From Cephaloticoccus capnophilus (GTDB lineage Bacteria > Verrucomicrobiota > Verrucomicrobiia > Opitutales > Opitutaceae), in contig NZ_LSZP01000062.1 of the NCBI RefSeq assembly GCF_001580045.1, positions 1 to 64,000 on the forward strand: a stretch of DNA of 64,000 nt. Direction: 5' to 3'. Positions 4,662-45,128 of the stretch are shown here, in pieces. Both the position numbers and the translations under genes were made by a program. Within the stretch, counting starts at the first letter, position 1; each line of letters opens with the position of its first letter. The notes beneath the pieces are model-generated. The model did not search any database. It was not told where the DNA came from and was given only the letters and a program-made list of their open reading frames with translations.

Positions 4662-6107
4662 ATGGAAGACGACCTATTCGGCGGGCTGCTCTTTGCAGAA
4701 GAGCCGGCCCCCTCCCCCGCGCCCAAAGCAGCCAAGAAATCAGCGAAAGCAAAACTCGGGAAAACTGCGGAGCCCGTAGAGTCCACGGCGCCAAACGCCC
4801 AACCGGAAATACCACCCGAATCGACTATCCCCGCAGCACTCCATAACGACGCGCCAGCGAACGCGTCGCAAAATGAAAAGGTCGGCGACCCCGCGTTGGC
4901 GAGTGAGCAAAAATCACGGGGAGAGACGGGCGAAAGTCCTACCCCGCTAACTAAGCAGCCAACGGCAAGCGACAGCGCGCGAGTTGACGCCGACGCGGCG
5001 GCGACGAGTGCGTTAGCCTCGGCGGCGACAAGTGAGCCAGCCTTGTCGGCGGCGAGTGCGGGCCTGCGCACGCCGTCAGGCACGGTGCAAAATAAAACCG
5101 CTCGAACGACGGCCACGCATGTCCCGCTCGCGTGGCCCGAAGCCCTACAAGGCACGCCCAGCATTGCGGTTTTGGAAAATGCGATTGCGAAAAACCGACT
5201 CGCCCACGGCCTGCTCCTCCACGGCGACGATTTTACGCTCTTAACCCAAGTCGCCCTCGCCCTTGCCGACCGGCTCCTCAACACGCCCGAAGCGAGTGCT
5301 TACTTCCCGGTCGCGCAGCACCCCGATTGCTTCGCGCTGCGGCCCAGCGGTGCGTCTCGCCAAGTTTCGGCAGACGACACCCGTGAACTCATTGGCAAAA
5401 CCCAAGTCTCCGGCAGCGTCTCCCCGCGCAAAGTTGCCATCCTCTACGAGTGCGACCGGATGAACCTCGCCGCGGCCAACATCTTTCTAAAAACCCTCGA
5501 AGAGCCACCCGCCAATACGACGCTGCTCCTCCTCACGACGCAGCCCTACGCGCTCCTGCCCACCGTCCGCAGCCGCGTCCTGCACTTCCGCTTTCCCGTC
5601 GGCAGCGACTCACTCGCCCAAGCCGCCGGACTCCCCGCTTGGCTCAGCGATTATCAAGCGTGGCTCGGCCAACTCTGCGAAGGCGTGACCGGCAAACGCG
5701 AAATCGCCGACTCGATTTTTACGCTCTACGGCCTCGTCGCCCGCTTCGACGCAATCCTCACCACTGCGACCGCCGAAGCTTGGGAAAGCGAAAAAAATGC
5801 GCTTTCCGAAGAGCTCGACAAAGAAGAGCAAAAGGCCGTCGAGAAGCGGCTCGCCAACGGCATCCGCCAACGAATTTTTGCCGAGATCGAACAAGCCACC
5901 CGCGCCTTTGCGCTGCCGCGATTGACACGAGCGGACAGTCGCGAGGGCGAAAATGCAGCCGAAACCACCGCACGCATCCGCCGCGCCCACACCGCGGCAA
6001 TCAGCGAACTCGAACACAGCGTGGGCCTCCTGCGGCTAAACCTAAACCACGCCGCCGCCCTAGAGAACTTCCTCCTGCACTCCATGCGCTTGTGGGCAAG
6101 GCGCTAG
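4662..6107 (+). CDS. holB: DNA polymerase III delta-prime-like subunit with long N-terminal extension
   Basis: From about residue 165 on the protein matches clamp-loader delta-prime: a segment starting LENAIAKNRLAHGLLLHG, then KVAILYECDRMNLAAANIF, FLKTLEEPPANT and the SRC-like box in LLPTVRSRVLHF. The subunit helps load the beta sliding clamp at replication forks. The expected P-loop is replaced by HGDDF, as in many non-ATP-binding delta-prime subunits. The first 160 or so residues are low-complexity Ala/Ser/Thr/Pro/Lys-rich and have no counterpart in ordinary HolB, giving 481 residues against the usual 300-350. It is the second gene of a tmk-holB pair. Confidence 0.85.
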   Translation: MEDDLFGGLLFAEEPAPSPAPKAAKKSAKAKLGKTAEPVESTAPNAQPEIPPESTIPAALHNDAPANASQNEKVGDPALASEQKSRGETGESPTPLTKQPTASDSARVDADAAATSALASAATSEPALSAASAGLRTPSGTVQNKTARTTATHVPLAWPEALQGTPSIAVLENAIAKNRLAHGLLLHGDDFTLLTQVALALADRLLNTPEASAYFPVAQHPDCFALRPSGASRQVSADDTRELIGKTQVSGSVSPRKVAILYECDRMNLAAANIFLKTLEEPPANTTLLLLTTQPYALLPTVRSRVLHFRFPVGSDSLAQAAGLPAWLSDYQAWLGQLCEGVTGKREIADSIFTLYGLVARFDAILTTATAEAWESEKNALSEELDKEEQKAVEKRLANGIRQRIFAEIEQATRAFALPRLTRADSREGENAAETTARIRRAHTAAISELEHSVGLLRLNLNHAAALENFLLHSMRLWARR

Positions 6108-6136
6108 GGGCTGTTCCCGTTTCAAGTCACTGACCG

Positions 6137-10675
<4,539 letters not shown>

Positions 10676-10845: not shown

Positions 10846-13518
10846 ATGAGTGATTCAAAGCCCGCCGCCAAACTTACCCCGATGATGGAGCAATACTTCG
10901 AGGTGAAGCGCGGCCTCCCCGATGGCACCCTCCTGCTCTTCCGCCTTGGCGACTTTTTCGAGCTATTCTACGAAGACGCGGTCATCGCCTCACGCCTGCT
11001 CGGCCTCACGCTGACCAAGCGTCAAGACTACCCGATGGCCGGCCTCCCCTACCACGCCGCCGACAGCTACATCACCAAGCTGCTTGCCGCCGGTCGCAAG
11101 GTCGCCCTCTGCGATCAGTCCGGCCCCGTACAACCCGGCAAACTCGTCAAACGCGCGCTCACCCGAATCCTCACCCCCGGCACCACCCTCGCGGCCTCGC
11201 AACTCGACGCCAACCGCAACCACTACCTCTGCGCGCTCTCTCACGATAAACGCGGGCTGCACGCCGCTTGGCTCGACCTCTCAACCGGCGAGTTTCGTAT
11301 CGCGAGCGACACGCAAATCGAATCTCTCCTGCCCGTCCTCACCGCACTCTCACCGGCCGAGCTTGTCCTCGCCGAAGGCATTTTTAGCAAATGGGAGGCC
11401 GAGTCGCAGGCCCACCACGACGCGGGACACGCCGACCTACGCAGCCTCTACCACTTCTGCGCCGACCACACTCGCAGCGAAATCCCGAACTACCACTTCG
11501 AGCCCCGCGCCGGAGCCAAGACTGTCATGGACACGCTCGGCGTGCTCAATCTCGAAGGCTTCGGTATTTCGCCCGAACACTCCGCTCTCGGCCCTGCGGG
11601 TGCGCTCCTTTACTACGCGACCGAGACGCTCCGCGCCCGCCCCGAAAATCTCCGCACGCTCAAAGAATACCGTAGCAGCGGCACACTCCTCCTCGACCCC
11701 GCCACGCTGCGAAACCTCGAGATTTTCTCCTCCTCACGAGGCACGCGCGAAGGCTCGCTGCTCGACGCCATCAACCGGACCCGCAGTGCGACCGGCGCAC
11801 GCCTCCTCGAACGTTGGCTCAGTGCGCCCACACTCGAACTCCACGAGATCCACCGTCGCCAAGTGCTAGTCGGCGAGTTTGCCGCGCAGCCCAGTCGGCT
11901 CTCTGCGCTCCAAGACTCGCTCGTCCAGGTCCGCGACATCCCTCGCATCCTCGGTCGCCTCCAAAACCGACTGCGCAACCCGCGTGAACTCGCAGGCATT
12001 CGCGATACGCTCGCGCAATTTCCCAAAATTCGCGCCGTGCTCGCGGACTGGAATTCACCAAGCGCTAACAGCAGCAGCCCCGAGCCCAAGCGCCTCGCCG
12101 CAGAATACGCCGACCGGATCGCCGCGCTGCCCGATCTCCTCGCGCTGCTCTCCCGCGCGCTCGCCGACGAGCTTCCGGGCGACGTCGCCGACGGCGGTAT
12201 GATTCGCCCCGGACACGATGCCGAGCTCGACCGCCTGCGCTCACTCACCACCAACAACAAAACCTGGCTCTCCGCACTCGAAACCACCGAACAGCAGCGC
12301 ACCGGCATCAAGAGCCTCAAGGTCAAATTCTCTAACAATTTCGGCTACTTCATCGAAGTCACCAAGGCCAACCTGCACCTAGTCCCGACCGACTACATTC
12401 GCCGCCAAACCACCGTCGGCGGCGAACGCTACGTGACCGAAAAACTCCGCGAAAAGGAGAAGGAAATCTTCACTGCCGAGGAACGCGCCCTCGCCCGCGA
12501 ACAAGACCTCTTTCACGCACTCGTTTCCTCCGTGCTCGCCGAGGCCGACGCACTCAGCCGCACCGCCGATGCGCTCGCCGAGCTCGATGTCCTCGCCGGC
12601 TGGGCCGCGCTCGCCCGCGAATGGGATTACACGCGCCCCACCGTGGACGACAGCGACCAACTCCTCATTGAGGAAGGCCGCCACCCCGTCGTTGAACAAA
12701 TGCTCAAATCGCCCCAAGCCGCTGCGAGCGCCAGCGCAAGCAGCTCCGCCGCCTTCGTCCCCAACGACACCGAGCTGTGCGCGAGCGGCGCGCAGCTCGC
12801 CCTCATCACCGGCCCCAACATGGCCGGTAAGTCCACCTACATCCGCCAAGTCGCACTCATCGCGCTGCTCGGCCACATCGGCTGCTGGGTGCCCGCCAAA
12901 TCCTGCCGCATCGGACTCATCGACCGGATCTTTTCGCGCGTCGGCGCGAGCGACGACCTGGCACGCGGCAACTCCACCTTCATGGTCGAGATGAACGAGA
13001 CCGCCAACATCCTCAACAACGCCACGCGACGCTCACTCATCATCCTCGACGAAATCGGCCGCGGCACCTCGACCTACGACGGGCTCTCCATCGCTTGGGC
13101 CGTCGTCGAGCACCTACACTCCGACCCGCAAGCGGGCCCGCGCACGCTCTTCGCCACACATTACCAAGAGCTCACCCAGCTCGAAAAACACCTCCCGCGC
13201 CTCCGCAACCTCTCGGTCACAGTCAAAGAGTGGAACGACGAAATCGTCTTTGTCCGCCGCGTGCAGCCCGGAGCCGCGGACCGCAGCTACGGCATCCAGG
13301 TCGCCCGCCTTGCCGGCCTCCCCCTAAGCGTAATCGACCGCGCAAAGGAAATCCTCTCTCGACTCGAGAGCGATGAGGCCGTCGTCGCACTGCCCGCAAC
13401 GACGAGCGCAGCAGCACCCCACCCTGCCCCGTCATCTCCAGAACCGAAGCTCCCCCCGAAGCCCAAAAAGAAACTCACCGTCGAACCTATCGACGACCCA
13501 CAACTTAGCCTCTTTTAG
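10846..13518 (+). CDS. mutS: DNA mismatch repair protein MutS
   Basis: The 890-residue product has the full MutS layout: N-terminal mismatch-binding domain with GDFFELFYEDA, in which the Phe and Glu of the F-x-E mismatch reader are present; connector, core and clamp; then the ATPase with TGPNMAGKSTYIRQ at about 656, MVEMNETANIL, and LDEIGRGTSTYDG near 735. The C-terminal tail is Pro/Lys-rich and ends DPQLSLF, a usual MutS terminus. It recognises mismatched bases and recruits MutL. The start at 10846 is taken from homology; an upstream in-frame Met at 10804 would add 14 residues. Its stop is two bases from repeat copy 2. Confidence 0.97.
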   Translation: MSDSKPAAKLTPMMEQYFEVKRGLPDGTLLLFRLGDFFELFYEDAVIASRLLGLTLTKRQDYPMAGLPYHAADSYITKLLAAGRKVALCDQSGPVQPGKLVKRALTRILTPGTTLAASQLDANRNHYLCALSHDKRGLHAAWLDLSTGEFRIASDTQIESLLPVLTALSPAELVLAEGIFSKWEAESQAHHDAGHADLRSLYHFCADHTRSEIPNYHFEPRAGAKTVMDTLGVLNLEGFGISPEHSALGPAGALLYYATETLRARPENLRTLKEYRSSGTLLLDPATLRNLEIFSSSRGTREGSLLDAINRTRSATGARLLERWLSAPTLELHEIHRRQVLVGEFAAQPSRLSALQDSLVQVRDIPRILGRLQNRLRNPRELAGIRDTLAQFPKIRAVLADWNSPSANSSSPEPKRLAAEYADRIAALPDLLALLSRALADELPGDVADGGMIRPGHDAELDRLRSLTTNNKTWLSALETTEQQRTGIKSLKVKFSNNFGYFIEVTKANLHLVPTDYIRRQTTVGGERYVTEKLREKEKEIFTAEERALAREQDLFHALVSSVLAEADALSRTADALAELDVLAGWAALAREWDYTRPTVDDSDQLLIEEGRHPVVEQMLKSPQAAASASASSSAAFVPNDTELCASGAQLALITGPNMAGKSTYIRQVALIALLGHIGCWVPAKSCRIGLIDRIFSRVGASDDLARGNSTFMVEMNETANILNNATRRSLIILDEIGRGTSTYDGLSIAWAVVEHLHSDPQAGPRTLFATHYQELTQLEKHLPRLRNLSVTVKEWNDEIVFVRRVQPGAADRSYGIQVARLAGLPLSVIDRAKEILSRLESDEAVVALPATTSAAAPHPAPSSPEPKLPPKPKKKLTVEPIDDPQLSLF

Positions 13519-13520
13519 AA

Positions 13521-13825
13521 CCACTACGCGTGGAGCGGCAGCGTGTCGCTGCACCCATTTACAGAGCCGCTTGGTTGCCGTGCATTCGCACAGCAGCCAA
13601 GCGGCTCTGTGAAAAGGAACCCAAACTTGGAGGCGGGTGTTTACTGGTGATTTTCCCCACCTCGCCCAAACGGGTTATCACTCTACTTTCTCTTTTACTC
13701 CTCGCCCTGTCGCAACGCGACAGGGCGAGTGCTTTCAAATTTGGGATTTCGTGATCGCGCAACGCGTGAGCCGAAATCCCAAATTAAACGGGTGCAGGCA
13801 CAGCCTGCCGCACCACGCGTAGTGG
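13521..13825 (+). repeat. Composite palindromic repeat, copy 2 (most complete)
   Basis: Fills the gap between the convergent ends of mutS and the DAHP synthase gene. The ends are inverted copies of each other over 36 bp (13521-13556 and 13790-13825), with outermost CCACTACGCGTGG and CCACGCGTAGTGG. Inside: palindrome A 13561-13610, stem ACAGAGCCGCTTGG; palindrome B 13701-13729, arms CTCGCCCTGTCGC and GCGACAGGGCGAG around AAC; palindrome C 13738-13785, arms TTTGGGATTTCG and CGAAATCCCAAA. No open frame of any length with protein-like character is present. No target-site duplication is obvious. Confidence 0.9.
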
Positions 13826-13851: not shown

Positions 13852-14907
13852 CTAAGCGGCTTTTGCCTTCGGCGCGTCGTGCATCGAGTCCCAGAGTCCG
13901 CGTGCGCGAACGATTAGCGCGCGCAGCTCCTCGGGCGTCACCGACTGCTTCGGATCGTCGCCAATCCCCTTTTGCGGTTCCACGTGGCTCTCGATGCACA
14001 GCCCATCCGCACCGTAAGCGACTGCAGCCAGCGACGCGCTCGGCACGTAGACAGCTTTCCCCACCGAGTGAGACGGATCGACTACGACCGCAGCCCAAGT
14101 CTTTTCCTTCAACAGCGGTGTCACGCTCTCATCGGGATGATTGCGGTAGCCGTCGAGCGTGGGCGTGGTCCCGCGCGGGCACAGCATGATGTTCGGATTA
14201 CCAAAGGCGGCGATGTACTCGGCAGCCGAGATAAACTCGTTTATCGGCCCCATGTGTAGGCTGCGTTTGAGCAGCACGGAGACCTCTGGCTTGTCCGCAA
14301 TGGCCTGCCCAATCGCACGCAGAAGCGAGTAGTTGAGCGCGTTGCGCGCGCCCACTTGCAAGATCGTAACCCCTGCATCGAGCGCGAGCGCGAGCTGCGC
14401 CTCATCCATCACCTCCGTATCGACCGGAAGGCCAGTACGCCGTGCACCCTCCATCAAAATGTCGAGCGAGCGGTTGCTGCCTTGGAAGCTATACGGATTA
14501 GTGCGCGGCTTCCAGACCCCGCCGCGAATCGCCTGTGCACCGGCTTCCTTCACTGCGGCGGCAGTCTCGTAAAAGTAGTTCGGATTATTCGGATCAATCG
14601 TGCAGGGCCCTGCGATCACGAGCAATTCCTCGCCGAGCATCACTTGGCCGATTTTTAGGCGGCCACGCGAGAGATCGCAGCGACGATCCATGAGCTTGAA
14701 GGGCGACTGAATCCGGTCGATCCGGTCGATATAGTTTAGTCCTTCGATTCGGTTCATCATCAATTCGTGGCGCTCATCTCCCACGATCGCGTAGATCGTG
14801 CGGAGGGCTCCCGCGATTGGCTGTATCTGGCAGTCAAACTCGCTGACGATTCGGGTCACTTCGTCGAGCTGCGTGGGAGTCAAACAACTGGCTTTAGGTA
14901 GGATCAT
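13852..14907 (-). CDS. aroF: 3-deoxy-7-phosphoheptulonate (DAHP) synthase, AroF/AroG type with N-terminal regulatory domain
   Basis: The 351-residue protein joins an N-terminal ferredoxin-like domain of about 70 residues to a TIM-barrel DAHP synthase core. Core motifs include LVIAGPCTID, AIRGGVWKPRTNPYSFQG, the VGARN segment, LLKRSLHM and VVVDPSHSVGK. It condenses phosphoenolpyruvate and erythrose 4-phosphate, the first step of the shikimate pathway; aroQ and aroE lie further along in this window. The N-terminal domain is the type that carries feedback control in the Thermotoga-like enzymes. A strong terminator hairpin lies 59 bp upstream of the start. Confidence 0.95.
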   Translation of the reverse strand: MILPKASCLTPTQLDEVTRIVSEFDCQIQPIAGALRTIYAIVGDERHELMMNRIEGLNYIDRIDRIQSPFKLMDRRCDLSRGRLKIGQVMLGEELLVIAGPCTIDPNNPNYFYETAAAVKEAGAQAIRGGVWKPRTNPYSFQGSNRSLDILMEGARRTGLPVDTEVMDEAQLALALDAGVTILQVGARNALNYSLLRAIGQAIADKPEVSVLLKRSLHMGPINEFISAAEYIAAFGNPNIMLCPRGTTPTLDGYRNHPDESVTPLLKEKTWAAVVVDPSHSVGKAVYVPSASLAAVAYGADGLCIESHVEPQKGIGDDPKQSVTPEELRALIVRARGLWDSMHDAPKAKAA

Positions 14908-26445: not shown

Positions 26446-26736
26446 CCACTACGCGTGGTGCGCAGCCGCAGGCTGTTTTATTTGGCGGCGGGCTCGTTGG
26501 CCCGCCGTCCATCGCTGCACCCATTTACAAAGCCGCTTGGAGGCGGGAGTTTATTAGTGATTTTTCCCACCTCGCCCAAACGGGTTATCACTCTACTTTC
26601 CCTTTTACTACTCTCCCTGTCGCAACGCGACAGGGGGAAGCCTTTCAAATTTGGGATTTCGCTTTCGCGCGATAGCGCGATGAGAAATCCCAAATTGAAC
26701 GGGTGCAGCGACACGCTGCCGCCCCACGCGTAGTGG
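26446..26736 (+). repeat. Composite palindromic repeat, copy 3 (palindrome A collapsed)
   Basis: Lies between the large secreted protein gene and rpmB. The outer ends CCACTACGCGTGG and CCACGCGTAGTGG are perfect inverted repeats. The left part has an extra module with GGCGGGCTCGTTGGCCCGCC, shared with copy 4. Palindrome A has lost its right arm: the sequence passes from CCGCTTGG straight into AGGCGGG, as after deletion between two CTTGG copies. Palindrome B has the core arms CCCTGTCGC and GCGACAGGG; palindrome C has GGGATTTC and GAAATCCC. Confidence 0.88.
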
Positions 26737-44750: not shown

Positions 44751-45128
44751 CCACTGCGCGTGGAGCGCAGCCGCAGGCTGTTTTATTTGGCGGCGGGCCT
44801 GACGGCGTGCACAGGACGACCTTAGTCGCCGAGCCGTCGTCAAATATTGGCCCACCGTCCATCGCTGCACCCGTTTACAGAGCCGCTTGGTTGCCGTGCA
44901 TTCGCACAGCAACCAAGCGGCTCTGTGAAAAGGAACCCAAACTTGGAGGCGGGAGTTTACTCGTGATTTCCCCCACCTCGCCCAAACGGGTTATCACTCT
45001 ACTCCCCCTGTCGCAACGCGACAGGGAGGAATGCTTTCAAATTTGGGAATTGGTTTCGTCGCGAAGCGACGGGGCCAATTCCCAAATTGAACGGGTGCAG
45101 GCACAGCCTGCCGCCCCACGCGCAGTGG
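44751..45128 (+). repeat. Composite palindromic repeat, copy 4 (longest)
   Basis: Lies between the start of the endonuclease gene and the end of the copper receptor gene, both on the minus strand, so the element is antisense to both. The ends CCACTGCGCGTGG and CCACGCGCAGTGG are perfect inverted repeats and differ from copies 2 and 3 by a paired change. The left module is like that of copy 3 but carries extra sequence. Palindrome A 44877-44926; palindrome B 45006-45026, CCCTGTCGC/GCGACAGGG around AAC; palindrome C 45040-45088 with GGGAATTGG and CCAATTCCC, as in copy 1. A nearby GCGGCCACTGACCGC follows at 45142-45156. Confidence 0.88.

Follow-up and report, generated by a model that had tools for sequence, protein, structure and literature searches.

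Modular hairpin elements interspersed in two Cephaloticoccus genomes: a candidate family of non-autonomous mobile DNA

What are the long, composite palindromic sequences that recur between genes in the genome of Cephaloticoccus capnophilus, and do they move? The question arises from a window (the whole 64,000-nucleotide stretch analysed, positions 1-64000 of contig C62 in an assembly of 66 contigs and 2.09 Mb) in which a sequence-only reading had recognized four similar elements and proposed either an undescribed non-autonomous mobile element or a structured RNA. Here, we examined the elements in this genome and in a second carrier, Cephaloticoccus primus CAG34, of the same genus. They are best read as an orphan family of hairpin elements, new as a family, with a mobilizer that may have been lost or may be of an unrecognized kind.

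Copies in the window and their modular layout

A nucleotide profile built from 32 copies placed exactly four family copies in the window (228.8 bits at 6137, 322.2 at 13521, 203.4 at 26446 together with an end fragment, and 275.6 at 44751; Table 1), all at the positions first reported for them, and these align with many other copies in the genome. The layout ascribed to them needs correction in that the 6137 copy has no right tip and that the 26446 copy is missing most of palindrome A and has a left hairpin that is longer and different. The family of four proved to be the window's share of about 150 copies in this genome, including two more on the same contig (C62:75119 and 96878), and the common orientation of the four is accidental (larger samples gave 18/11 and 46/42 in the two genomes). 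Their intergenic siting was borne out more widely, as none of 79 classified copies interrupts a predicted gene. The most typical window copy starts 3 bp beyond the stop codon of a gene whose end is at 13518; its other end lies 27 bp ahead of a convergent gene at 13852.

From left to right, an element comprises a tip hairpin (CCAC, a five-base loop and GTGG), an E hairpin, palindrome A, a core, palindromes B and C, a second E hairpin and a second tip. The elements are about 300 bp long (280-380 bp), with up to seven hairpins and no gene inside. The family is modular: 34 combinations of module types occurred among 52 copies, the core, palindrome A or palindrome B is absent from some copies, and the smallest forms consist of tip, hairpin and tip only (37-49 bp). 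Modules are thus mixed among copies. A longer E hairpin (type d) occurs at either end of an element (loci L022, L004, L014 and L194, and the window copies at 26446-26736 and 44751-45128), and its apex holds an extra palindrome in the 44751 window copy and in L194, as though palindromes insert at hairpin tips.

Table 1 Coordinates of the typical element, its modules, the other window copies and the single Y1 transposase locus
Feature	Position	Strand	Observation
Left tip, CCACTACGCGTGG	13521..13533	+	Local hairpin, 4-bp stem, 5-base loop
Left E hairpin, type a, GCAGCGTGTCGCTGC	13538..13552	+	Helix 2: 98.9% paired, double changes at 4/6 pairs
Palindrome A	13561..13610	+	Helix 3: double changes at 13/21 pairs
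Core, non-palindromic, with AAACGGGTTATCAC	13611..13704	+	Missing from some copies
Palindrome B, CCCTGTCGCAACGCGACAGGG	13705..13725	+	Nearly invariant across both species
Palindrome C	13738..13785	+	Two types in the window's genome
Right E hairpin, type b, GCAGGCACAGCCTGC	13794..13808	+	Helix 6: 100% paired, double changes at 4/6 pairs
Right tip, CCACGCGTAGTGG	13813..13825	+	Helix 7: 100% paired
Most typical window copy	13521..13825	+	305 bp
Copy 2	6137..6423	+	Convergent gap; right tip lost
Copy 3	26446..26736	+	Palindrome A mostly deleted; left hairpin longer (type d)
Copy 4	44751..45128	+	Type d left hairpin with extra palindrome in apex
IS605-type pair, tnpA and RNA-guided tnpB	L195 1798-3609 (G000:C59)		Sole Y1 transposase found in the window's genome

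Abundance, host range and insertion differences

Counted per strand, exact copies of the 13-bp end motif, CCACTNCGCGTGGNG, number 157 and 158 in the window's genome (reversed-pattern control, 0 and 0) and 110 and 98 in C. primus (control, 0 and 1). A covariance model built on the element's right half matched at least 150 sites in the window's genome. The left and right tips, equal in number, point towards each other, mostly about 200-390 bp apart and in preferred length classes. These two genomes were the only carriers among 150 Opitutaceae genomes searched with the right-half model, the other 148 giving no match, and were again the only two among 38 relatives searched by blastn. Rfam gave no match at gathering score in the window (six loci gave sub-gathering matches only), searches of phages and plasmids gave no match to the element, and IMG/VR gave none to palindrome B; no described family having matched in these collections, the elements still stand as undescribed. 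A Verrucomicrobia metagenome-assembled genome, Oscillochloris, Megasphaera and Massilia (L082, L067, L088 and L097) each matched the core of palindrome B exactly at one site, which was taken as chance.

Copies are enriched in convergent gaps and frequently lie just past stop codons: the 79 classified copies occupied 31 convergent, 37 tandem and 11 divergent gaps, against a background of 39, 172 and 34 neighbouring gene pairs, respectively, in large loci (gene calls from a home-made codon-usage finder). Orientation within tandem gaps was random (19 with the gene, 18 against). Among orthologous adjacent gaps, counted in unselected stretches (C. primus loci chosen by palindrome B were left out as biased), 66 held no copy in either species, 3 and 9 held one in a single species and 3 in both, so that 12 of the 15 occupied gaps were filled in one species only. 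Filled gaps measured about 412 bp and empty ones about 130 bp; for example, a gap of 44 bp in C. primus corresponds to 605 bp in the other carrier, and genes overlapping by 4 bp correspond to a 368-bp filled gap. Where both species are filled, the copies mostly lie in opposite orientation, which fits independent insertion or inversion better than old fixed sites.

These one-species-only gaps and the random orientation support a family that is mobile on an evolutionary scale. The earlier suggestion of a non-autonomous mobile element is likewise upheld by a copy number of about 150, orthologous gaps that differ in occupancy, the random orientation of copies, exclusively intergenic siting and the lack of an internal gene. 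In the window's genome, one near-identical pair (L003 and L005) has unrelated flanks and differs by two substitutions and one indel; no two copies in C. primus are more than 88% alike, indicating that movement there was not recent. The 52 full copies showed no target duplication (0-2 bp), and the outward flanks are purine-rich in the window's genome (44 of 91 ends carry AAAA or GAAA). With only two carriers, at a median protein identity of 82.5%, empty-site junctions are not alignable to the base. Recurring, partly palindromic modules also lie outside the tips (flanks of L003, L005, L012, L013, L017 and L018, and window positions 6090-6136; for example, AAAAAAGCGTATCAGCGCGG...TTTGAAACGGGAACAGNCCCTAGG and AAGCTCAGAGAGAGCGGTCACTGACC), and are probably other interspersed families adjoining the elements.

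Folding and the structure of the ends

The elements fold far beyond chance (z = −14.8 and −16.1 for RNA of the two strands, and −13.4 for DNA). Over 31 copies drawn from the two species, pairing holds in 97.8% of cells and 31 of 60 pairs have changed on both sides, with a covariation score of 0.316 (0.089 after shuffling and no more than 0.045 after sliding) and few intermediates among the double changes. Template switching at imperfect palindromes can also produce double changes without selection; the covariation therefore indicates that the palindromes are maintained but does not by itself indicate function.

Inverted ends extended to about 36 bp had been described for the intact copies; they are a by-product and not the conserved feature, and pairing across the ends fails in many copies. 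What is conserved instead is local: the left tip pairs with itself in 119 of 119 cells (30 copies), and local pairing in the end hairpins is 98.6-100%. The contrast is clear in C. primus, where the two tips pair locally in 48/48 and 48/48 cells and the two E hairpins in 71/72 and 72/72, whereas pairing across the ends reaches only 78/96 for the tips and 55/144 for the E hairpins, ruling out a long terminal inverted repeat as the conserved feature. Moreover, the two E hairpins of an element tend to differ, being identical in 1 of 44 copies in the window's genome against 7.6 expected (permutation, P = 0.00025); C. primus had 0 identical pairs against 1.7 expected, which is not significant alone. 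The tip loop base varies freely, with no clear agreement between the two tips of a copy. With local pairing kept, cross-end pairing lost and E types differing, each end acts as its own two-hairpin unit (tip and E), and a single long stem is avoided. This difference rule may stem from the moving form of the element, or from the loss of long perfect palindromes.

Mobilizer search, known systems and competing explanations

We searched both genomes for enzymes that could move the family. In the window's genome, PF01797 (Y1_Tnp) matched once, to an IS200-type gene beside tnpB that scored 133 bits against NF033573 but 23.7 bits against NF047646, the REP-associated tyrosine transposase (cut-off, 80). 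No protein of either genome exceeded that cut-off, which removes a REP-associated transposase as the driver, and the IS605-type pair itself was rejected because no tips lie within the surrounding 6 kb and it is absent from C. primus, where PF01797 had no match. PF00665 (rve) gave one partial and one weak match in the window's genome and none in C. primus, and PF01609 (DDE_Tnp_1) and PF02371 (Transposase_20, IS110-type) matched in neither. Tyrosine recombinases numbered two and three, respectively, and are probably XerC and XerD (identities inferred) plus one 434-aa integrase in C. primus. Large stretches were read in both genomes (454 kb, or about 22%, for the window's genome and 1.16 Mb, or about 48%, for C. 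primus), the rest being covered by family and pattern, and no transposase gene bounded by tips was found in these stretches. Tip-to-tip spans above 500 bp held ordinary-looking genes, no genes or chance tip matches rather than an autonomous copy; one such span, of 809 bp at C2:9182, contains an unrelated open reading frame between two part elements. The initial remark that no transposase lies near the elements can be extended, as the families tested yielded no mobilizing enzyme for them in either genome; C. primus has few common insertion sequences for all its wealth of palindromic repeats. Another Opitutaceae genome (G010:C1, loci L208-L212) has eight Y1_Tnp matches, its own high-copy 14-mers and intergenic palindromes, possibly REPs with their transposase.

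Among known systems, REPs and REPINs (PMC3116915, PMC3733652) resemble the family in high copy number, extragenic siting, compensatory changes and two inverted, palindromic hairpin ends with a spacer. They differ in that the GTAG tag is not conserved here (the tip base that would complete it is A, G, C or T), no REP-associated transposase was found in either carrier, and the elements are 280-380 bp long, with up to seven hairpins and a modular interior. The view that these are not simple REPs thus stands on size, with a less sharp contrast than proposed, as the 37-49-bp forms are REP-like. CGTC-tagged REPs (PMC3733652) are likewise palindromic repeats without a dedicated transposase, but the ends described here lack CGTC and the elements greatly exceed them in size and are composite. 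Bacterial MITEs (Correia/NEMIS, ERIC and YPAL; PMC2229807) share the lack of an internal gene, intergenic siting, inverted ends and filled versus empty sites, but the Cephaloticoccus elements have no target duplication and no TA ends, exceed 200 bp, and do not conserve their ends as cross-complementary arms. Mitochondrial double-hairpin and repetitive hairpin elements (PMC2800124 and references there) are also intergenic hairpin chains that encode no enzyme, and those of Allomyces share the absence of duplications; this likeness is by description, and the present family differs in residing in a bacterial chromosome with fixed tips and a fixed order of parts. Behaving like both REPINs and MITEs but lacking defining features of each, the family was filed as neither.

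We therefore weighed four other explanations. Spread by host replication and repair alone (template switching and hairpin insertion, comparable to the double-hairpin elements in the mitochondria of fungi and the hairpin elements in those of sponges) would suit the lack of Y1_Tnp, rve, DDE_Tnp_1 and Transposase_20 in C. primus, the missing target duplications, the palindromes within hairpin apices (copies 26446 and 44751) and the scarcity of intermediates. We nevertheless regard it as unlikely, since precise tips conserved at both ends of some 150 copies suggest an end-recognizing protein, and the transposase tests covered four families and the tyrosine recombinases. A related proposal, a transposase-free, host-carried element whose two end hairpins must differ for the strand to fold as a clover rather than a long stem, is similarly doubtful. 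A classical MITE whose DDE transposase has been lost would account for the 13-bp inverted ends, the preferred length classes and the equal, facing tips, but is very improbable given 52 full copies free of target duplication, ends kept as local hairpins, and a DDE_Tnp_1 record blank in both genomes, with the rve matches confined to the partial and weak ones above.

Function could also underlie the conservation. A structured RNA or 3'-UTR control element (a terminator or mRNA stabilizer) under transcript selection, the second of the original proposals, would explain strong folding, covariation and siting just past stop codons and between convergent genes. Selection on a transcript would, however, favour G-T over C-A, and the non-Watson-Crick cells comprise 20 G-T and 21 C-A (against 211 double changes), which favours a DNA structure over RNA, even if copies lying in both orientations to genes weaken this test. 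Flanks after the stem are T-rich at 1 of 91 ends and A-rich at 43, which rules out an intrinsic terminator. Together with random orientation to genes, parts missing from some copies and no Rfam match, this leaves an RNA role with little credibility. A chromosomal binding site for gyrase or a nucleoid protein, spread by mobility and kept for function as in BIMEs, could draw on high copy number, intergenic siting enriched in convergent gaps and the near invariance of palindrome B between species; this putative role is extremely unlikely, as some copies have no core or palindromes and positions mostly differ between the two species.

Instead, we favour, with a probability of roughly 0.6, a non-autonomous, non-coding mobile DNA element, a new, oversized and modular REPIN/MITE-like family found in two Cephaloticoccus genomes as far as seen. 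Ends kept as two local hairpin pairs (tip and E) would let one strand fold as a clover-like chain of hairpins, whose ends an enzyme supplied in trans might recognize in single-stranded DNA, by analogy with IS200/IS605-type enzymes, inserting the element without target duplication. This trans-acting step is putative, as no mobilizing enzyme and no gene-bearing copy were found in the families and stretches searched. Purifying selection would then leave copies between genes only, recombination among copies would shuffle the hairpin modules, and selection on the folded strand or template switching could keep the palindromes near perfect. The mobilizing enzyme may since have disappeared, which is likely in C. 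primus given the age of its copies, or may be of an unrecognized kind.

How palindromic repeats spread without a transposase is a stated open question for CGTC-tagged REPs (PMC3733652), and for REPINs a clover fold, rather than a long hairpin, has been proposed as the moving form (PMC3116915), a proposal on which the difference rule for E hairpins bears. The Cephaloticoccus family offers a large, clean case, with more than 100 copies in each of two ant-gut sister species, of which one is represented by a named cultured strain, and combines few common transposase families with insertion differences and a measurable end-hairpin rule, in a module structure that lets exchange among copies be measured.
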